DNA of 64,000 bases from Halobacterium jilantaiense (GTDB lineage Archaea > Halobacteriota > Halobacteria > Halobacteriales > Halobacteriaceae), in contig NZ_FOJA01000001.1 in NCBI RefSeq assembly GCF_900110535.1, positions 2,205,393-2,269,392 on the forward strand, in the 5' to 3' direction. Below the pieces are notes generated by a model that was not told the origin of the DNA, ran no database searches, and saw nothing but the letters and a program-made list of their open reading frames with translations. This document shows positions 38,279-43,815 of the stretch, in pieces (within the stretch, counting starts at the first letter, position 1; each line of letters begins with the position of its first letter). Position numbers and translations under genes: made by a program.

Positions 38279-38434
38279 ATGTCGGCAGAGGCAGCGACAG
38301 ACACAGACGACGAACCGTGGCCCCAGCGCCTGCTGGACAACATCTGGGTGCTGGCGCTGGCGGCCATCATCTACTTCGTGGTGTCGTATATCGTGTGGGG
38401 GATGGTCGACCTGGCGACGATTCCCACGGGGTGA
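38279..38434 (+). CDS. Heme-copper oxidase small membrane subunit (CbaD-like)
   Basis: 51 residues with an acidic N-terminus (MSAEAATDTDDEPWPQRLLD) and one transmembrane helix (VLALAAIIYFVVSYIVWGMV). It is directly followed, after six bases, by subunit II. Small single-helix subunits at this place are known from haloarchaeal ba3-type oxidase operons (cbaD). Assignment is by position and topology. Confidence 0.7.
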   Translation: MSAEAATDTDDEPWPQRLLDNIWVLALAAIIYFVVSYIVWGMVDLATIPTG

Positions 38435-38440
38435 CCACGG

Positions 38441-39418
38441 ATGAGCTCGCCACTCGACGACCCCGACGGCAACTGGTGGGACCGGAAAGTCAACCGCCGC
38501 GAGACCATCTGGCTCGGGCTCTCGGCCGGCTGGGCGGTCAGCCTCTTCGGCTGGATGCTCGGCTGGACGGAGTTCGGCGACCAGAACAACATCGGCCAGA
38601 ACTACGAGGTCTCTCCGGAGCGCTACCAGCAGAAAGTCTCGGCGTTCAAGGACGCGGCCGGCACGCTGTCCGTCGACGACGAGGACTACCTCGTCCCGGA
38701 CGGTGAGGACATCTACGTCGGCGCGTTCCAGTGGGGCTTCGACGGCCTCCCGGTCGTGGTGCGGCCCGGCGAGACGTACAAGATCCACCTCGGGACGTAC
38801 GACGTCCAGCACGGCTTCAGCGCGCGCAACGAGTCGAATCTCAGCCAGCAGATATCGCTCCAGATGATTCCCGGCTACGAGTGGGTCCTGGAGATGTCCT
38901 GGGACGACCCCGGCACCTATCAGGTGGTCTGCAACGAGTTCTGCGGGAACGGCCACCGCTCCATGCACGGGACGTTCCTCGTGGCCGACCACGAGGCGGT
39001 CGAGACGGGAACCGACGCCGGTGACGGCCAAGAGTCGGAGCCATCGGGCCCGTACGGCGGCTGGCTCACGTCCGACGAGACCGGCGGCGCTGCCGACACT
39101 TTCGAGTCAGTCGTCGACGAGACTGGCTCGTCGTCGGTCACCGTCGAGGTCGGCGCAGACGGCAACGGCGGCCCGTTCGCGTACGCGCCCGCCGCCGTGC
39201 GAGTCGACCGGGGGACGACCGTCACCTTCGACTGGGTCTCCGCCGGCCACAACGTCGTGGTCGAAGACGCCCCCGACGGCAGCGACTGGAGCGGGGTCGA
39301 CTCCCTCGACGGCGAGGGGTACACGCACGAACACACGTTCGAGACGGCTGGCGTCTACAAGTACTACTGCGACCCCCACCTGCGAAACGGGATGAAGGGC
39401 GTCGTGGAGGTGGTGTAG
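38441..39418 (+). CDS. cbaB: Heme-copper oxidase subunit II (CuA) fused to a halocyanin domain
   Basis: 325 residues. One N-terminal transmembrane helix (IWLGLSAGWAVSLFGWML). The CuA domain has His124 (DVQHGF), Cys164, Cys168, His172 and Met175 (VCNEFCGNGHRSM). A linker of ~45 acidic/Gly residues leads to a type-1 copper (halocyanin/plastocyanin) domain with His270 (SAGHNVVV), Cys310, His313 and Met318 (YYCDPHLRNGM). Thus a blue-copper donor and the CuA acceptor are in one chain outside the membrane. Subunit I follows without a gap. Confidence 0.93.
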   Translation: MSSPLDDPDGNWWDRKVNRRETIWLGLSAGWAVSLFGWMLGWTEFGDQNNIGQNYEVSPERYQQKVSAFKDAAGTLSVDDEDYLVPDGEDIYVGAFQWGFDGLPVVVRPGETYKIHLGTYDVQHGFSARNESNLSQQISLQMIPGYEWVLEMSWDDPGTYQVVCNEFCGNGHRSMHGTFLVADHEAVETGTDAGDGQESEPSGPYGGWLTSDETGGAADTFESVVDETGSSSVTVEVGADGNGGPFAYAPAAVRVDRGTTVTFDWVSAGHNVVVEDAPDGSDWSGVDSLDGEGYTHEHTFETAGVYKYYCDPHLRNGMKGVVEVV

Positions 39419-41140
39419 ATGTTCGGATTCAGCACCTACGAGTACGACAGCGACGGCTTCCGGGAGTGTGGCGTCACCGGCCTCCGCATCCACAAGTCCG
39501 CGGAGGACATGGTGAAACTGTACGGGCTCACGGCCATCGTCGCGCTCGTCGTCGGCGGCCTGTTCGCCGTCGCCGTCGCAATGACGCGCTGGGAGGCCGT
39601 CGGCATGCTCGACCCCGGACGGTTCTACAAGTACCTGAGCATGCACGCCTGGAACCTCCTCATCTTCTGGATGGTGTTCATGGAGATTGCCATCCTCTAC
39701 GTCGGCGGGCCGTTCGTCCTCGGTCGCCGGCTCTCGCTGCCGTCGCTCGCGAAAGTCGGCTACGGCCTGATGCTGCTCGGTGCAATCGGCGTGAACGTCG
39801 CCATCTTCGTCACGTCCCCGCCGAACAACGCCCCGCTGCTCACGTCGTACGTGCCGCTGCCGTCGTCCTGGCAGTTCTACCTGTTCGCCATCGTGTTCCT
39901 GCTGGGCGCGGTCGTCGCGGCGCTGCCCTTTTTCGCGACCATCTGGTGGGAGCGTCAGGACAACCCCGAGAAGACGCTGCCGCTGGTCGCGTTCGGCGCG
40001 TTCGTCACGTCCATCATCGCGCTCGAAGCGCTGCTCGGCGGCCTCATCACGTACGTCCCGACGCTCGCCTGGCGGGTCGGCGTCCTCGAGAGCCTCGACC
40101 CCGTCTGGTACCGCCAGATGTACTGGATCGTCGGCCACGGCACCCAGCAGATCAACCTCGTGGCGATGATCGTCATCTGGTACTTCCTCACGCACGTCCT
40201 CGGGGGTGCGGAGGTCGCCTCCCAGAAGGTCTCCCGCATCGCGTTCGTGATGTACCTCTTCTTCATCAACCTCGGCGCGGCCCACCACCTCATGTCCGAC
40301 CCCGGCGTCTCGGCGGGCTGGCGGCTCTGGAACACCTCCTACTCCGCGTACGGTGCCGTCGTCGCCTCCATGATTCACGCGTTCGCCATCCCCGCCGGTC
40401 TGGAAGCCGGCCGGCGCGCGAAGGGCAAGGGCGGCGGCCTCTTCGGCTGGCTCTGGTCGAGCCCCTGGGACGACCCCGGCTACTCGGCGACCATCCTCTC
40501 CATCGTCCTGTTCGGGTTCCTCGGCGGCATCACCGGCGTCATGATGGGCCAGATGCAACTCAACATGACCTGGCACAACACGCTCGCCGTGCCCGGCCAC
40601 TTCCACGCCACCGTCGTGCTCGGTACGACGCTCGCGTTCATGGGACTGGGCTACTACGTGCTGCGGCTCGTCTTCGGCCGGGACTGGGTTCTCAAGCCCC
40701 TCGCGAGAATCCAGCCCTACCTCTACGCGGGCGCGATGGCGCTGGTCTGCCTGATGATGATGTACCTCGGCGTGCTGTTCGGCGTGCCCCGCCGTCACCC
40801 CTCGGTGATGGACATCCCGGGCACCGAGTTCAGCTTCGAGGCCGCACAGCCGTTCTTCGCCGTCTTCGGCGTGTCGGCCGTTCTCGCCATCGTCGGCGGG
40901 GCGCTGTTCGCACTCGTCGCCGTCGGCACCCTGCTGTTCGGCGACCGATTCTCCGTCGACAGCGCCCGCGTCGGTGACGTCGACCGCGTCGCGGCCGACG
41001 GCGGTGACGAAGACGACGCCGTACACGACCAGAGCATGCGCGGGACGTTCGTGCTGACGCTCGTCTTCCTCGCGACGTTCGTCGTGCTGACCGCGCTCAA
41101 CTGGTACCTGCTCTCGAACACCTGGCAGATCGGTGCCTGA
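39419..41140 (+). CDS. cbaA: Heme-copper oxidase subunit I, B (ba3) type, lacking the active-site Tyr
   Basis: 573 residues, about 13 transmembrane helices. Low-spin heme ligands His76 and His396 and high-spin His394 (VPGHFHATVV); CuB ligands His240, His289 and His290 (AAHHLMSD). By position these match Thermus ba3 His72, His386, His384, His233, His282, His283. The residue four after His240 is Gln244 (GHGTQQ), where ba3 oxidases have the cross-linked Tyr237. The enzyme therefore may reduce NO or be an unusual oxidase. Named cbaA by position; the name implies O2 reduction, which is in doubt. Confidence 0.9.
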   Translation: MFGFSTYEYDSDGFRECGVTGLRIHKSAEDMVKLYGLTAIVALVVGGLFAVAVAMTRWEAVGMLDPGRFYKYLSMHAWNLLIFWMVFMEIAILYVGGPFVLGRRLSLPSLAKVGYGLMLLGAIGVNVAIFVTSPPNNAPLLTSYVPLPSSWQFYLFAIVFLLGAVVAALPFFATIWWERQDNPEKTLPLVAFGAFVTSIIALEALLGGLITYVPTLAWRVGVLESLDPVWYRQMYWIVGHGTQQINLVAMIVIWYFLTHVLGGAEVASQKVSRIAFVMYLFFINLGAAHHLMSDPGVSAGWRLWNTSYSAYGAVVASMIHAFAIPAGLEAGRRAKGKGGGLFGWLWSSPWDDPGYSATILSIVLFGFLGGITGVMMGQMQLNMTWHNTLAVPGHFHATVVLGTTLAFMGLGYYVLRLVFGRDWVLKPLARIQPYLYAGAMALVCLMMMYLGVLFGVPRRHPSVMDIPGTEFSFEAAQPFFAVFGVSAVLAIVGGALFALVAVGTLLFGDRFSVDSARVGDVDRVAADGGDEDDAVHDQSMRGTFVLTLVFLATFVVLTALNWYLLSNTWQIGA

Positions 41141-41172: not shown

Positions 41173-42222
41173 ATGCACTCCCAACTGCCCCGGCACCTCT
41201 GGTCGCTCGTCAAACCCCGAATCGTCGCGCTGCTGTGCGTGACGGGCGTGTTCGCCGTCTACGCGGCCGGCGGCGCGTCGCTCGGCACCGTCGCGTCGTT
41301 CCTCGCGGCGGGCGCGCTCGTCGCCGCGGCGTCGGCGGCCTACAACTGCTGGTACGACCGCGAACTCGACCGACACATGGACCGCACCGCCGACCGCCCG
41401 CTGCCCAGCGGCGACCTCGACCACCGGGTCGCGTTCGCGTTCGCCACCGTCCTGCTCGCCGCCGGTACGGCCGTCGGTCTGGCGACGCTCCCGGTCGAGA
41501 CGGTCGCGTACATGCTCGCCGGCGCGGCGTCCTACGTTCTCGTCTACACGGTCGGCCTCAAACGCCGGCACTGGCTGGGCGTCGTGCTCGGCGGATCCGC
41601 CGGCTCGTTCCCCGTGCTCGCGGGCTGGACGGCCGTGCGGCCGCTCGCGCCCGAGGCGCTCGTACTCGCGGCGGTCGTGTTCGTCTGGACGCCCGCCCAC
41701 GCCTGGGCGCTCGCTGTCGTCTACCGCGAGGACTTCACGGCGGCCGACGTTCCGACGCTGCCCGTCGTCGCGTCCGCGAAGCGCGTCCGCCGCGCCGTCT
41801 GGTACTCGGCGGTCGGGACGCTCGTCGTCGCCGCCACCGCGGTGCCGTTCGCGCCCGCGCCGTACGCCACGGTGCTCGCGGTCGGCGGCGCGCTCTTCCT
41901 CGCGGGGTTCCGGCAGTTCCACCGCGAGGGCACTGACACCGCCGCCGTCCGGGCGTTCTTCACGTCGAACACGTTCCTCGCGCTGCTGTTCGTCGCGTGG
42001 GGGGTCGGCGGTGCCACCGGCGGTGTCGGCCCCGCCGGCCGGGTCGCGGCCGCCGTGCTGACCGCCGGAACGTTCGGCTGGCTGTGGACGCGCCGGCCCG
42101 CCCTCGACGGCGTCACGAGCGCGCCCGCCGTCGAAGCCGACTGGGTCGCCGCGCGCCTCGGGCGAGCGGCGGAATACGTTCGGGACAACGCCCACCCGCC
42201 AAGCCCGAGTAACTCCGACTGA
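41173..42222 (+). CDS. ctaB: Protoheme IX farnesyltransferase (heme O synthase)
   Basis: 349 residues, UbiA superfamily. NCWYDRELDRHMDRTADRPLP is the first Asp-rich motif with the heme-O-specific arginines, and YREDFTAADVPTLPVVA the second. Eight to nine membrane helices with an extra C-terminal ~65 residues. Makes heme O, used as the high-spin heme or heme A precursor of oxidases; its presence in the operon says the enzyme uses a farnesylated heme. Stop overlaps the next ATG by one base. Confidence 0.93.
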   Translation: MHSQLPRHLWSLVKPRIVALLCVTGVFAVYAAGGASLGTVASFLAAGALVAAASAAYNCWYDRELDRHMDRTADRPLPSGDLDHRVAFAFATVLLAAGTAVGLATLPVETVAYMLAGAASYVLVYTVGLKRRHWLGVVLGGSAGSFPVLAGWTAVRPLAPEALVLAAVVFVWTPAHAWALAVVYREDFTAADVPTLPVVASAKRVRRAVWYSAVGTLVVAATAVPFAPAPYATVLAVGGALFLAGFRQFHREGTDTAAVRAFFTSNTFLALLFVAWGVGGATGGVGPAGRVAAAVLTAGTFGWLWTRRPALDGVTSAPAVEADWVAARLGRAAEYVRDNAHPPSPSNSD

Positions 42223-42971
42223 TGACAGACGAGCGCGGCGACGCGTCGACGAGCGCGTCCACGAACGCGGCCGCCGACACCGGCGTCTCGCTGACTGCGG
42301 CCGTCTCCAGCGCGTGGTCGACCGTGAAGACCGTCTACTGGGCGAACTCTCCGAGCTGGCGGGTCCTCAAGTCGGGCGCGCTCGTCTTCCTCGGCTTCTT
42401 CGTCTGGGCGGGGTCGAACATCCTCTACTCGTACAACGGCAGCCTCGACGCCCTGCACTACCCGATGGCGTACGGGTTCCTGCTCATCGGCTACGGGCCG
42501 GTCCACCACCTGGTCGTCATCCCGCTCGCGCTCAAGTGGCGGCGCAGCGACGGCCTCCGGGCCACGCTCGGCAAGCGGCTGCCCAACGGCATGCTCGTCG
42601 CGTTCGTCGCGGCGATTCTCGTCCTCGGGACGTTCCCCGCGGGCGCGATGACCGTCGACTTCCAGAGCCAGCTCGGCGACGGCTCGGCGGACGTCGACCC
42701 CGAGCTGTCCTGCGTGAAGACCACCGGCGGGGACGCCCGCGTCGACTGCGAACTGGCGTCCAGCGAGGGCGTCGGCCGCGTCGTCGTCGAGAGCGGGGGT
42801 GAGACCGTCCGGACTGTCGAGGACCCGCCGTACGAGTTCTCGCTGTCGGCGAGCGAGGTCGGCGAAATCGTGGGCGAGAAGCAGTTCACGGTGCGTCTGG
42901 AGGACGAGGACGGGACCTTCGTGCGGCGGTACACCCGCCGGCTCGCGGTCGTCCCCGAGGCGACCGAGTAA
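42222..42971 (+). CDS. Membrane protein of the heme-copper oxidase operon
   Basis: 249 residues. N-terminal ~50 polar residues, then three hydrophobic segments (VLKSGALVFLGFFVWAGSNI, MAYGFLLIGYGPVHHLVVIPLAL, LVAFVAAILVLGTFPAGAMTV), and a C-terminal beta-rich domain (residues ~145-249). GPVHHLVV has adjacent histidines in a membrane segment that could bind a metal or heme. Coupled to ctaB by overlap. No named family; accessory or assembly function suspected. Confidence 0.7.
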   Translation: MTDERGDASTSASTNAAADTGVSLTAAVSSAWSTVKTVYWANSPSWRVLKSGALVFLGFFVWAGSNILYSYNGSLDALHYPMAYGFLLIGYGPVHHLVVIPLALKWRRSDGLRATLGKRLPNGMLVAFVAAILVLGTFPAGAMTVDFQSQLGDGSADVDPELSCVKTTGGDARVDCELASSEGVGRVVVESGGETVRTVEDPPYEFSLSASEVGEIVGEKQFTVRLEDEDGTFVRRYTRRLAVVPEATE

Positions 42972-43014: not shown

Positions 43015-43815
43015 ATGGCCGACTTGAGGGACATCGGGCTCTCGGAGTACGAGGCGAACGCGTACCGCGCGCTGCTCCGAACGGGTCCGGCAACCGCCAA
43101 AGAGTTGTCAGAGGAGAGCGGGGTGCCGATGGGACGAATCTACGACGTGCTCGGCAGCATCGAGTCCCAGCACCTCGTCCGCAGCCAGGCCGCCAGCCGG
43201 CCGAAGAAGTACGTCGCCGTCGAACCCGAGACGGCCCTCGACCGCCTGCTGGAGGACCGGAAGCGCGAACTCCGCGAGAAAGCCAGCCAGTACGAGGGCG
43301 TCGTCGACGAACTGACGCGCGAACTCGACGAGCCGAAGGCACCCGAGGACGGCTTCTGGACCGCCGCCGTCGGCCCGCAGGCCGCCCTCGACCTATTGTT
43401 GGAGCGCATCGACGCCGCCAGCGACAGCATCGTCCTCGTCTCCGGCACGCCCGCCTCCGGCTGGGAGCTCGACGACGTCAGCGGCCGCGTGTTCGGTCGG
43501 CTGGAGGCCGCCGTCGACCGCGGCGTCGAGGTCTCGGTGCTGCTCTCCGAGGACCTCGCGCGCTCGATTCCCGACGAGGTCAACGAGCGCTACGCCGAGG
43601 TGCTCGCCGACGAACCCGGCTACGAGGTCCGGGTCGGGGAGAGCATCGACGGCAACGTCACCATCGTCGACGGCGCGGAGGTCTGTCTGGAGGTGTCGAA
43701 CCCCGTCCAGCCCGGCGAAGCGTTCGCCACCATCGACCTCCAGGACACCCAGTTCGCCGCCGACGTCCACGAGGCGTTCGAGGCGAGTTGGGGTGATTCG
43801 ACGACGCTCGGGTGA
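43015..43815 (+). CDS. TrmB-family transcriptional regulator
   Basis: 266 residues. DIGLSEYEANAYRALLRTGPATAKELSEESGVPMGRIYDVLGSIESQHLV is a TrmB winged helix; a coiled segment (DRLLEDRKRELREKASQYEGVVDELTREL) follows; residues ~125-230 are the PLD-like TrmB middle domain (IVLVSGTPASGW, LGRLEAAVDRGVEVSVLLS). It lies directly after the oxidase operon on the same strand, with a separate T-rich promoter gap (42980-42990). Local regulation of the operon is plausible. Confidence 0.88.
   Translation: MADLRDIGLSEYEANAYRALLRTGPATAKELSEESGVPMGRIYDVLGSIESQHLVRSQAASRPKKYVAVEPETALDRLLEDRKRELREKASQYEGVVDELTRELDEPKAPEDGFWTAAVGPQAALDLLLERIDAASDSIVLVSGTPASGWELDDVSGRVFGRLEAAVDRGVEVSVLLSEDLARSIPDEVNERYAEVLADEPGYEVRVGESIDGNVTIVDGAEVCLEVSNPVQPGEAFATIDLQDTQFAADVHEAFEASWGDSTTLG

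Follow-up and report, generated by a model that had tools for sequence, protein, structure and literature searches.

We found that an operon on the forward strand of the 64,000-nucleotide stretch of Halobacterium jilantaiense DNA analysed here (the window, to which coordinates refer unless a contig is named) very likely encodes eNOR, a CuA-containing nitric oxide reductase derived from the B family, which would probably clear NirK-made NO as N2O. The functional assignment of the host copy rests on homology and genome context. The eNOR family, reportedly treated by Hemp and Gennis in 2008, has already been named and reported in Halobacteria, and the host enzyme is a further member of it. A first-pass annotation of this DNA had left the choice between a CuA-dependent enzyme of the NO-reductase type and an oxidase with an unconventional donor; the former reading is supported and the latter becomes less likely, while the existing name of the family and its record in Halobacteria had been overlooked. 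Gln at the active-site position is the diagnostic residue of eNOR, which was known earlier in Natronomonas, was then found across other Halobacteria and is often misannotated as cytochrome oxidase (PMC8756737). A passage of PMC11388526 that cites Murali et al. 2024 describes eNOR as biochemically characterised and groups it with the B-family oxygen reductases.

The catalytic subunit I, with its low-spin heme and high-spin heme-CuB site, is a 573-aa product of 39419..41140 (+), and PF00115 is its sole Pfam match. The annotation had claimed that all six metal-ligand histidines are present, and the translation contains each of them (His76, His240, His289, His290, His394 and His396), aligned to H72, H233, H282, H283, H384 and H386 of the Thermus thermophilus ba3 oxidase, respectively. 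Its second claim, that a Gln within GHGTQQ replaces the active-site Tyr, is confirmed by both translation and alignment: the segment His240-Gly-Thr-Gln-Gln244, which holds a CuB ligand and the diagnostic Gln, is encoded by CAC GGC ACC CAG CAG at 40136..40150 (+), with the Gln244 codon at 40148-40150, and Gln244 aligns with Tyr237, the cross-linked Tyr of T. thermophilus ba3. The ba3 oxidases of T. thermophilus are also the closest solved sequences to subunit I (E 1e-37). The AlphaFold model (pLDDT 83.6, pTM 0.86) has the heme-copper oxidase subunit I fold by structure comparison, matching ba3 (1xme) with Z 34, rmsd 2.5 and 26-27% identity, and A-family chains reach a similar Z with 18-19% identity.

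Next, we investigated the distribution of the enzyme. Across 292 haloarchaeal genomes, 53 contain subunit I homologues with 60-90% identity, below which a wide gap is followed by ordinary oxidases at about 30% identity. Homologues also occur in bacteria, including Thermus, Thermomicrobium, Chloroflexota, Alpha-, Beta- and Gammaproteobacteria, Nitrospirota, Aquificota and others, and those named have 42-51% identity, either to the host subunit I or to a Thermus query. When relatives of subunit I were aligned, every one of the 30 haloarchaeal and 84 bacterial sequences had Gln in the Tyr column, the bacterial ones coming from several phyla, and chance, a sequencing error and a pseudogene are thereby excluded. 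Alongside Gln244, the residues Glu89, Gln243, Asn246, Tyr279, Asn305, Tyr308 and His320 are invariant in these 114 relatives, and both the host's own ba3 and that of T. thermophilus differ from eNOR at every one of these co-conserved columns. For instance, Glu89 of helix II (39683..39685, +) is Ala in T. thermophilus ba3 and Ile in the host's ba3, and His320 of helix VIII (40376..40378, +) aligns with T312 of the ba3 K-pathway. When 14 fingerprint columns, among them the Gln itself, were removed, a single branch (SH-aLRT 98) of the maximum-likelihood tree still separated all 47 Gln-bearing rows from all Tyr-bearing rows.

In cbb3 oxidases, the Tyr is supplied by helix VII, two residues ahead of the CuB His pair. 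A Tyr from another helix next to the CuB ligand had been named as the observation that would speak against a nitric oxide reductase, and by alignment the outcome is negative: Tyr was never found at the cbb3 position in the sequences examined, where the host protein has Ala and the family almost always Ala or Ser, otherwise Cys. Seven Tyr residues reach 95% conservation or more across the family; four of these, at 70, 144, 154 and 255, are Tyr in ba3 as well, and the remaining three, at 279, 308 and 311, correspond to F272, L301 and F304 of ba3. The alignment thus gives no candidate for an alternative Tyr at the site.

These residues suggest how the enzyme could work. The halocyanin domain of subunit II would accept the electrons and hand them to CuA, for which the ligands are present, and they would then move through the low-spin heme to the high-spin heme-CuB site, whose ligands are likewise present and where, as in the rest of the family, two NO would be converted to N2O. 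Gln244, together with Gln243 and Asn246, would take the place of the Tyr; this substitution is plausible because Tyr237 donates an additional electron and proton to break the O-O bond, a contribution that NO reduction can do without. Protons would probably come from the cytoplasm along a modified K-type path, in which Ser317 and Tyr255 are kept and His320 is a substitution. Compared by alignment to the ba3 K-path, Tyr248 and Ser309 are conserved as Tyr255 and Ser317, Thr312 is replaced by the invariant His320 and Tyr244 by Ile or Val, whereas Thr315 has become mostly Ala in haloarchaeal eNOR and is Thr or Ser in bacterial eNOR. Such changes would fit the single proton channel predicted for eNOR (PMC8756737 Table A4).

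We also examined the other genes of the operon. A 51-aa protein with a single TM segment (38279..38434, +) is a probable small subunit; it has no family match, its homologues lie directly 5' of subunit II in most haloarchaeal eNOR loci examined, and bacterial eNOR loci have a small ORF at the matching position. Subunit II (38441..39418, +) combines a CuA domain (CoxB match, aa 105-186) with a C-terminal halocyanin, or type-1 copper, domain (TIGR03102 over cut-off, aa 218-324). Its set of CuA ligands is complete, with His124, Cys164, Glu166 (backbone), Cys168, His172 and Met175, and all of these apart from the backbone ligand Glu166 are invariant in 29 haloarchaeal and 83 bacterial subunit II homologues. 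In the halocyanin domain (39140..39415, +), His270, Cys310, His313 and Met318 are candidate copper ligands by the plastocyanin/halocyanin pattern. The fusion is present in 11 of the 53 haloarchaeal eNOR genomes, the rest having a CuA-only subunit II, and a non-exhaustive literature search combining halocyanin with nitric oxide reductase returned no title or abstract on a fused subunit.

Downstream of subunit I, the heme o synthase gene ctaB (41173..42222, +; TIGR01473 over cut-off) is followed by a gene for an unannotated 249-aa protein (42222..42971, +), with 3 predicted TM segments, a GPxxHxV motif and a C-terminal domain containing two invariant Cys. This protein is encoded in 52/53 eNOR genomes, as against 2/239 of the others, where the matches are weak or partial. 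Of 9 genomes in which its distance to subunit I was measured, 7 have a gap of 17 to about 230 bp and 2 one of about 1.1 kb, and in the host operon ctaB stands between the two genes. It matches no Pfam or NCBIfam family, was not found in bacterial eNOR loci and retrieved only noise in a PDB sequence search, and its single-sequence structure prediction is poor (pLDDT 57). Its co-occurrence with eNOR marks the product as a good candidate subunit or assembly factor of the haloarchaeal enzyme, and as such it is a testable new component. Haloarchaeal eNOR could even be a distinct four-subunit form, composed of the small TM subunit, a CuA subunit that is halocyanin-fused in a minority, the catalytic subunit and a haloarchaea-only 3-TM subunit, a proposal that we put forward tentatively, at slightly less than even confidence. 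Right after the operon, at about 43015-43815, lies a TrmB-family regulator (PF01978 and DUF7436), which possibly controls it.

Upon examining gene content across the 292 genomes, we observed that nirK is present in 50/53 genomes with eNOR and missing as a match in the other 3, compared to 108 of the 239 that lack eNOR (Fisher p 4e-12); restricting the comparison to genomes lacking qNOR gives 17/18 and 19/111 (p 2e-10). Shared ancestry weakens these co-occurrence statistics, but the association is still strong within genera (Mantel-Haenszel p 6e-9), with one genus showing 9/9 versus 0/6. A distance of 2-10 kb separates eNOR from nirK in 16 genomes, and in the neighbourhoods read, genes for a copper-type P-type ATPase, halocyanin, heme o synthase, a cupin and an HTH_10 regulator are found near both. 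Close linkage was also reported in Ardenticatena, where eNOR shares an operon with NirK (PMC4653789).

The flanks of 80 bacterial eNOR loci frequently contain homologues of cytochrome b (62/80), SCO (57/80) and heme o synthase (ctaB, 54/80), and a nirK-like gene was found in 2/80, indicating that close linkage to nirK typifies haloarchaea and Thermus more than it does the family as a whole. Rhodothermus marinus, which we take to be the source of the characterised eNOR, is absent from these 80 loci of the genome scan. On Thermus plasmids, eNOR adjoins Rrf2, DUF542, cupin-type and multicopper oxidase genes, and in Defluviimonas a hemerythrin gene is nearby.

The host genome encodes three heme-copper subunits I in all, namely one aa3-like, one ba3-like and the 39419..41140 product, and the other two oxidases both have Tyr at the active site (GHPEVY in L001, GHPVVY in L002). 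It also contains nirK over the cut-off (C1:27238-28164). We detected no PF22085 qNOR domain in the host genome, with Haloferax volcanii matching as a positive control, and no nosZ above the cut-off, with CuA-domain matches only; eNOR is the sole nitric oxide reductase found there. Since qNOR and nosZ were not found, the most likely role of the host eNOR is the removal of NirK-made NO with release of N2O.

An oxygen reductase of the B family, in which another residue or metal state replaces the cross-linked Tyr as an unconventional electron and proton donor, would account for the closeness of the fold and sequence to ba3 oxidases and for the name cytochrome oxidase subunit I that NCBI gives to the bacterial homologues. 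The invariant Tyr279 and Tyr308, missing from ba3, might appear to offer such a donor, but they align with F272 and L301 rather than with the cross-link position, and the cbb3 position is without Tyr. The strong link to nirK and the presence in the host of two oxidases that keep the Tyr make this reading less likely still, and NO reduction is reported for the eNOR family in the passage of PMC11388526 mentioned above; we consider an oxidase improbable. A decayed or non-functional oxidase copy, to which the loss of the Tyr alone would point, is hardly credible, with the Gln invariant across archaea and bacteria, the metal ligands of subunits I and II all intact and the ORFs intact.

We regard it as less probable, yet within reach, that NO detoxification, and not respiratory denitrification, is the main task of the enzyme, which might act in microoxic conditions and also reduce some O2. 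This account overlaps with the favoured one, and the two roles are compatible and not exclusive. It agrees with the lack of nosZ in the host, with the NO-stress-type genes among the Thermus and Defluviimonas neighbours, and with the presence of qNOR in 35/53 eNOR genomes, which means that eNOR is often a second nitric oxide reductase. However, eNOR is the only nitric oxide reductase found in 17 nirK-bearing genomes, the host among them, and its position near nirK in the 16 genomes noted above is what would be expected of a respiratory pathway.

Compared to known systems, the host operon shares with the eNOR family, whose assignment we prefer, the replacement of Tyr by Gln, B-family descent, a CuA-cupredoxin subunit II directly upstream and adjacent nirK in many genomes, whereas it differs in the fused halocyanin of subunit II and in the extra haloarchaea-specific membrane protein beside the operon. 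Cytochrome ba3, of T. thermophilus and of the host (L002), resembles it in the fold, the six His, the CuA subunit II and the small TM subunit, but Tyr237, Thr312 and Trp239 of ba3 are Gln, His and Asn in the host eNOR, which belongs to a separate clade; with Gln244 instead of the cross-link residue, it does not fall among the B-family (ba3) oxygen reductases, nor among cbb3-type (C family) enzymes, whose helix VII Tyr is Ala here. bNOR (CuANOR) of Bacillus azotoformans is likewise a CuA-dependent nitric oxide reductase of B-family origin, yet its active-site residue is Asn (PMC8756737 Table A4), unlike Gln244 of the host, which sets the two apart. The haloarchaeal qNOR (NorZ) is proposed to catalyse the same reaction, NO to N2O, but it is a single fused quinol-type subunit with a PF22085 domain, Glu at the site and no CuA subunit, and the absence of a PF22085 match extends to the operon. 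The purified ba3 oxidase of Natronomonas pharaonis could appear to be a counter-example. Judged from the gene listings, the oxidase data probably concern another protein, because PMC8305020 gives the purified enzyme as CbaA (NP_2966A), apart from the pair NP_4296A/NP_4294A (coxA3/coxB3), which is 28-33% identical to T. thermophilus ba3.

These findings bear on how denitrification is scored. A 2021 survey of haloarchaeal denitrification treats NorZ (qNOR) as the sole class of nitric oxide reductase in haloarchaea (PMC8400030), and our eNOR distribution data contradict this view. Of the 36 haloarchaeal genomes that have nirK but no qNOR match, 17 contain eNOR, and such species, which would otherwise be scored as NO emitters, may release N2O. 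The other 19 have neither a qNOR nor an eNOR match, and another NO sink or true NO release is possible in them. For this salt-loving archaeon, eNOR is the probable route from toxic NO to the greenhouse gas N2O, and the database name cytochrome oxidase subunit I conceals its homologues.

Finally, we observed an unusual potential heme ligand in part of the family. Haloarchaeal eNOR sequences retain His at position 396, whereas Lys replaces this axial His of the low-spin heme (GHFK) in L034, L035, L039, L040, L052 and L094, which come from Thermus, Bacterium HR19 and an Aquificota bin; because of this replacement, Thermus eNORs may behave differently. One observation goes against the NO-reductase reading: T. 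brockianus YIM 77927 consumed nitrate without detectable N2O, so that NO was inferred as its product, and was scored as lacking nor (PMC9270275). We find that this published nor-less strain carries an eNOR gene (L040) whose product contains GHGAQQ and which lies within a few kb of nirK, and that its eNOR, given the Lys at the low-spin-heme His, may be atypical or inactive.
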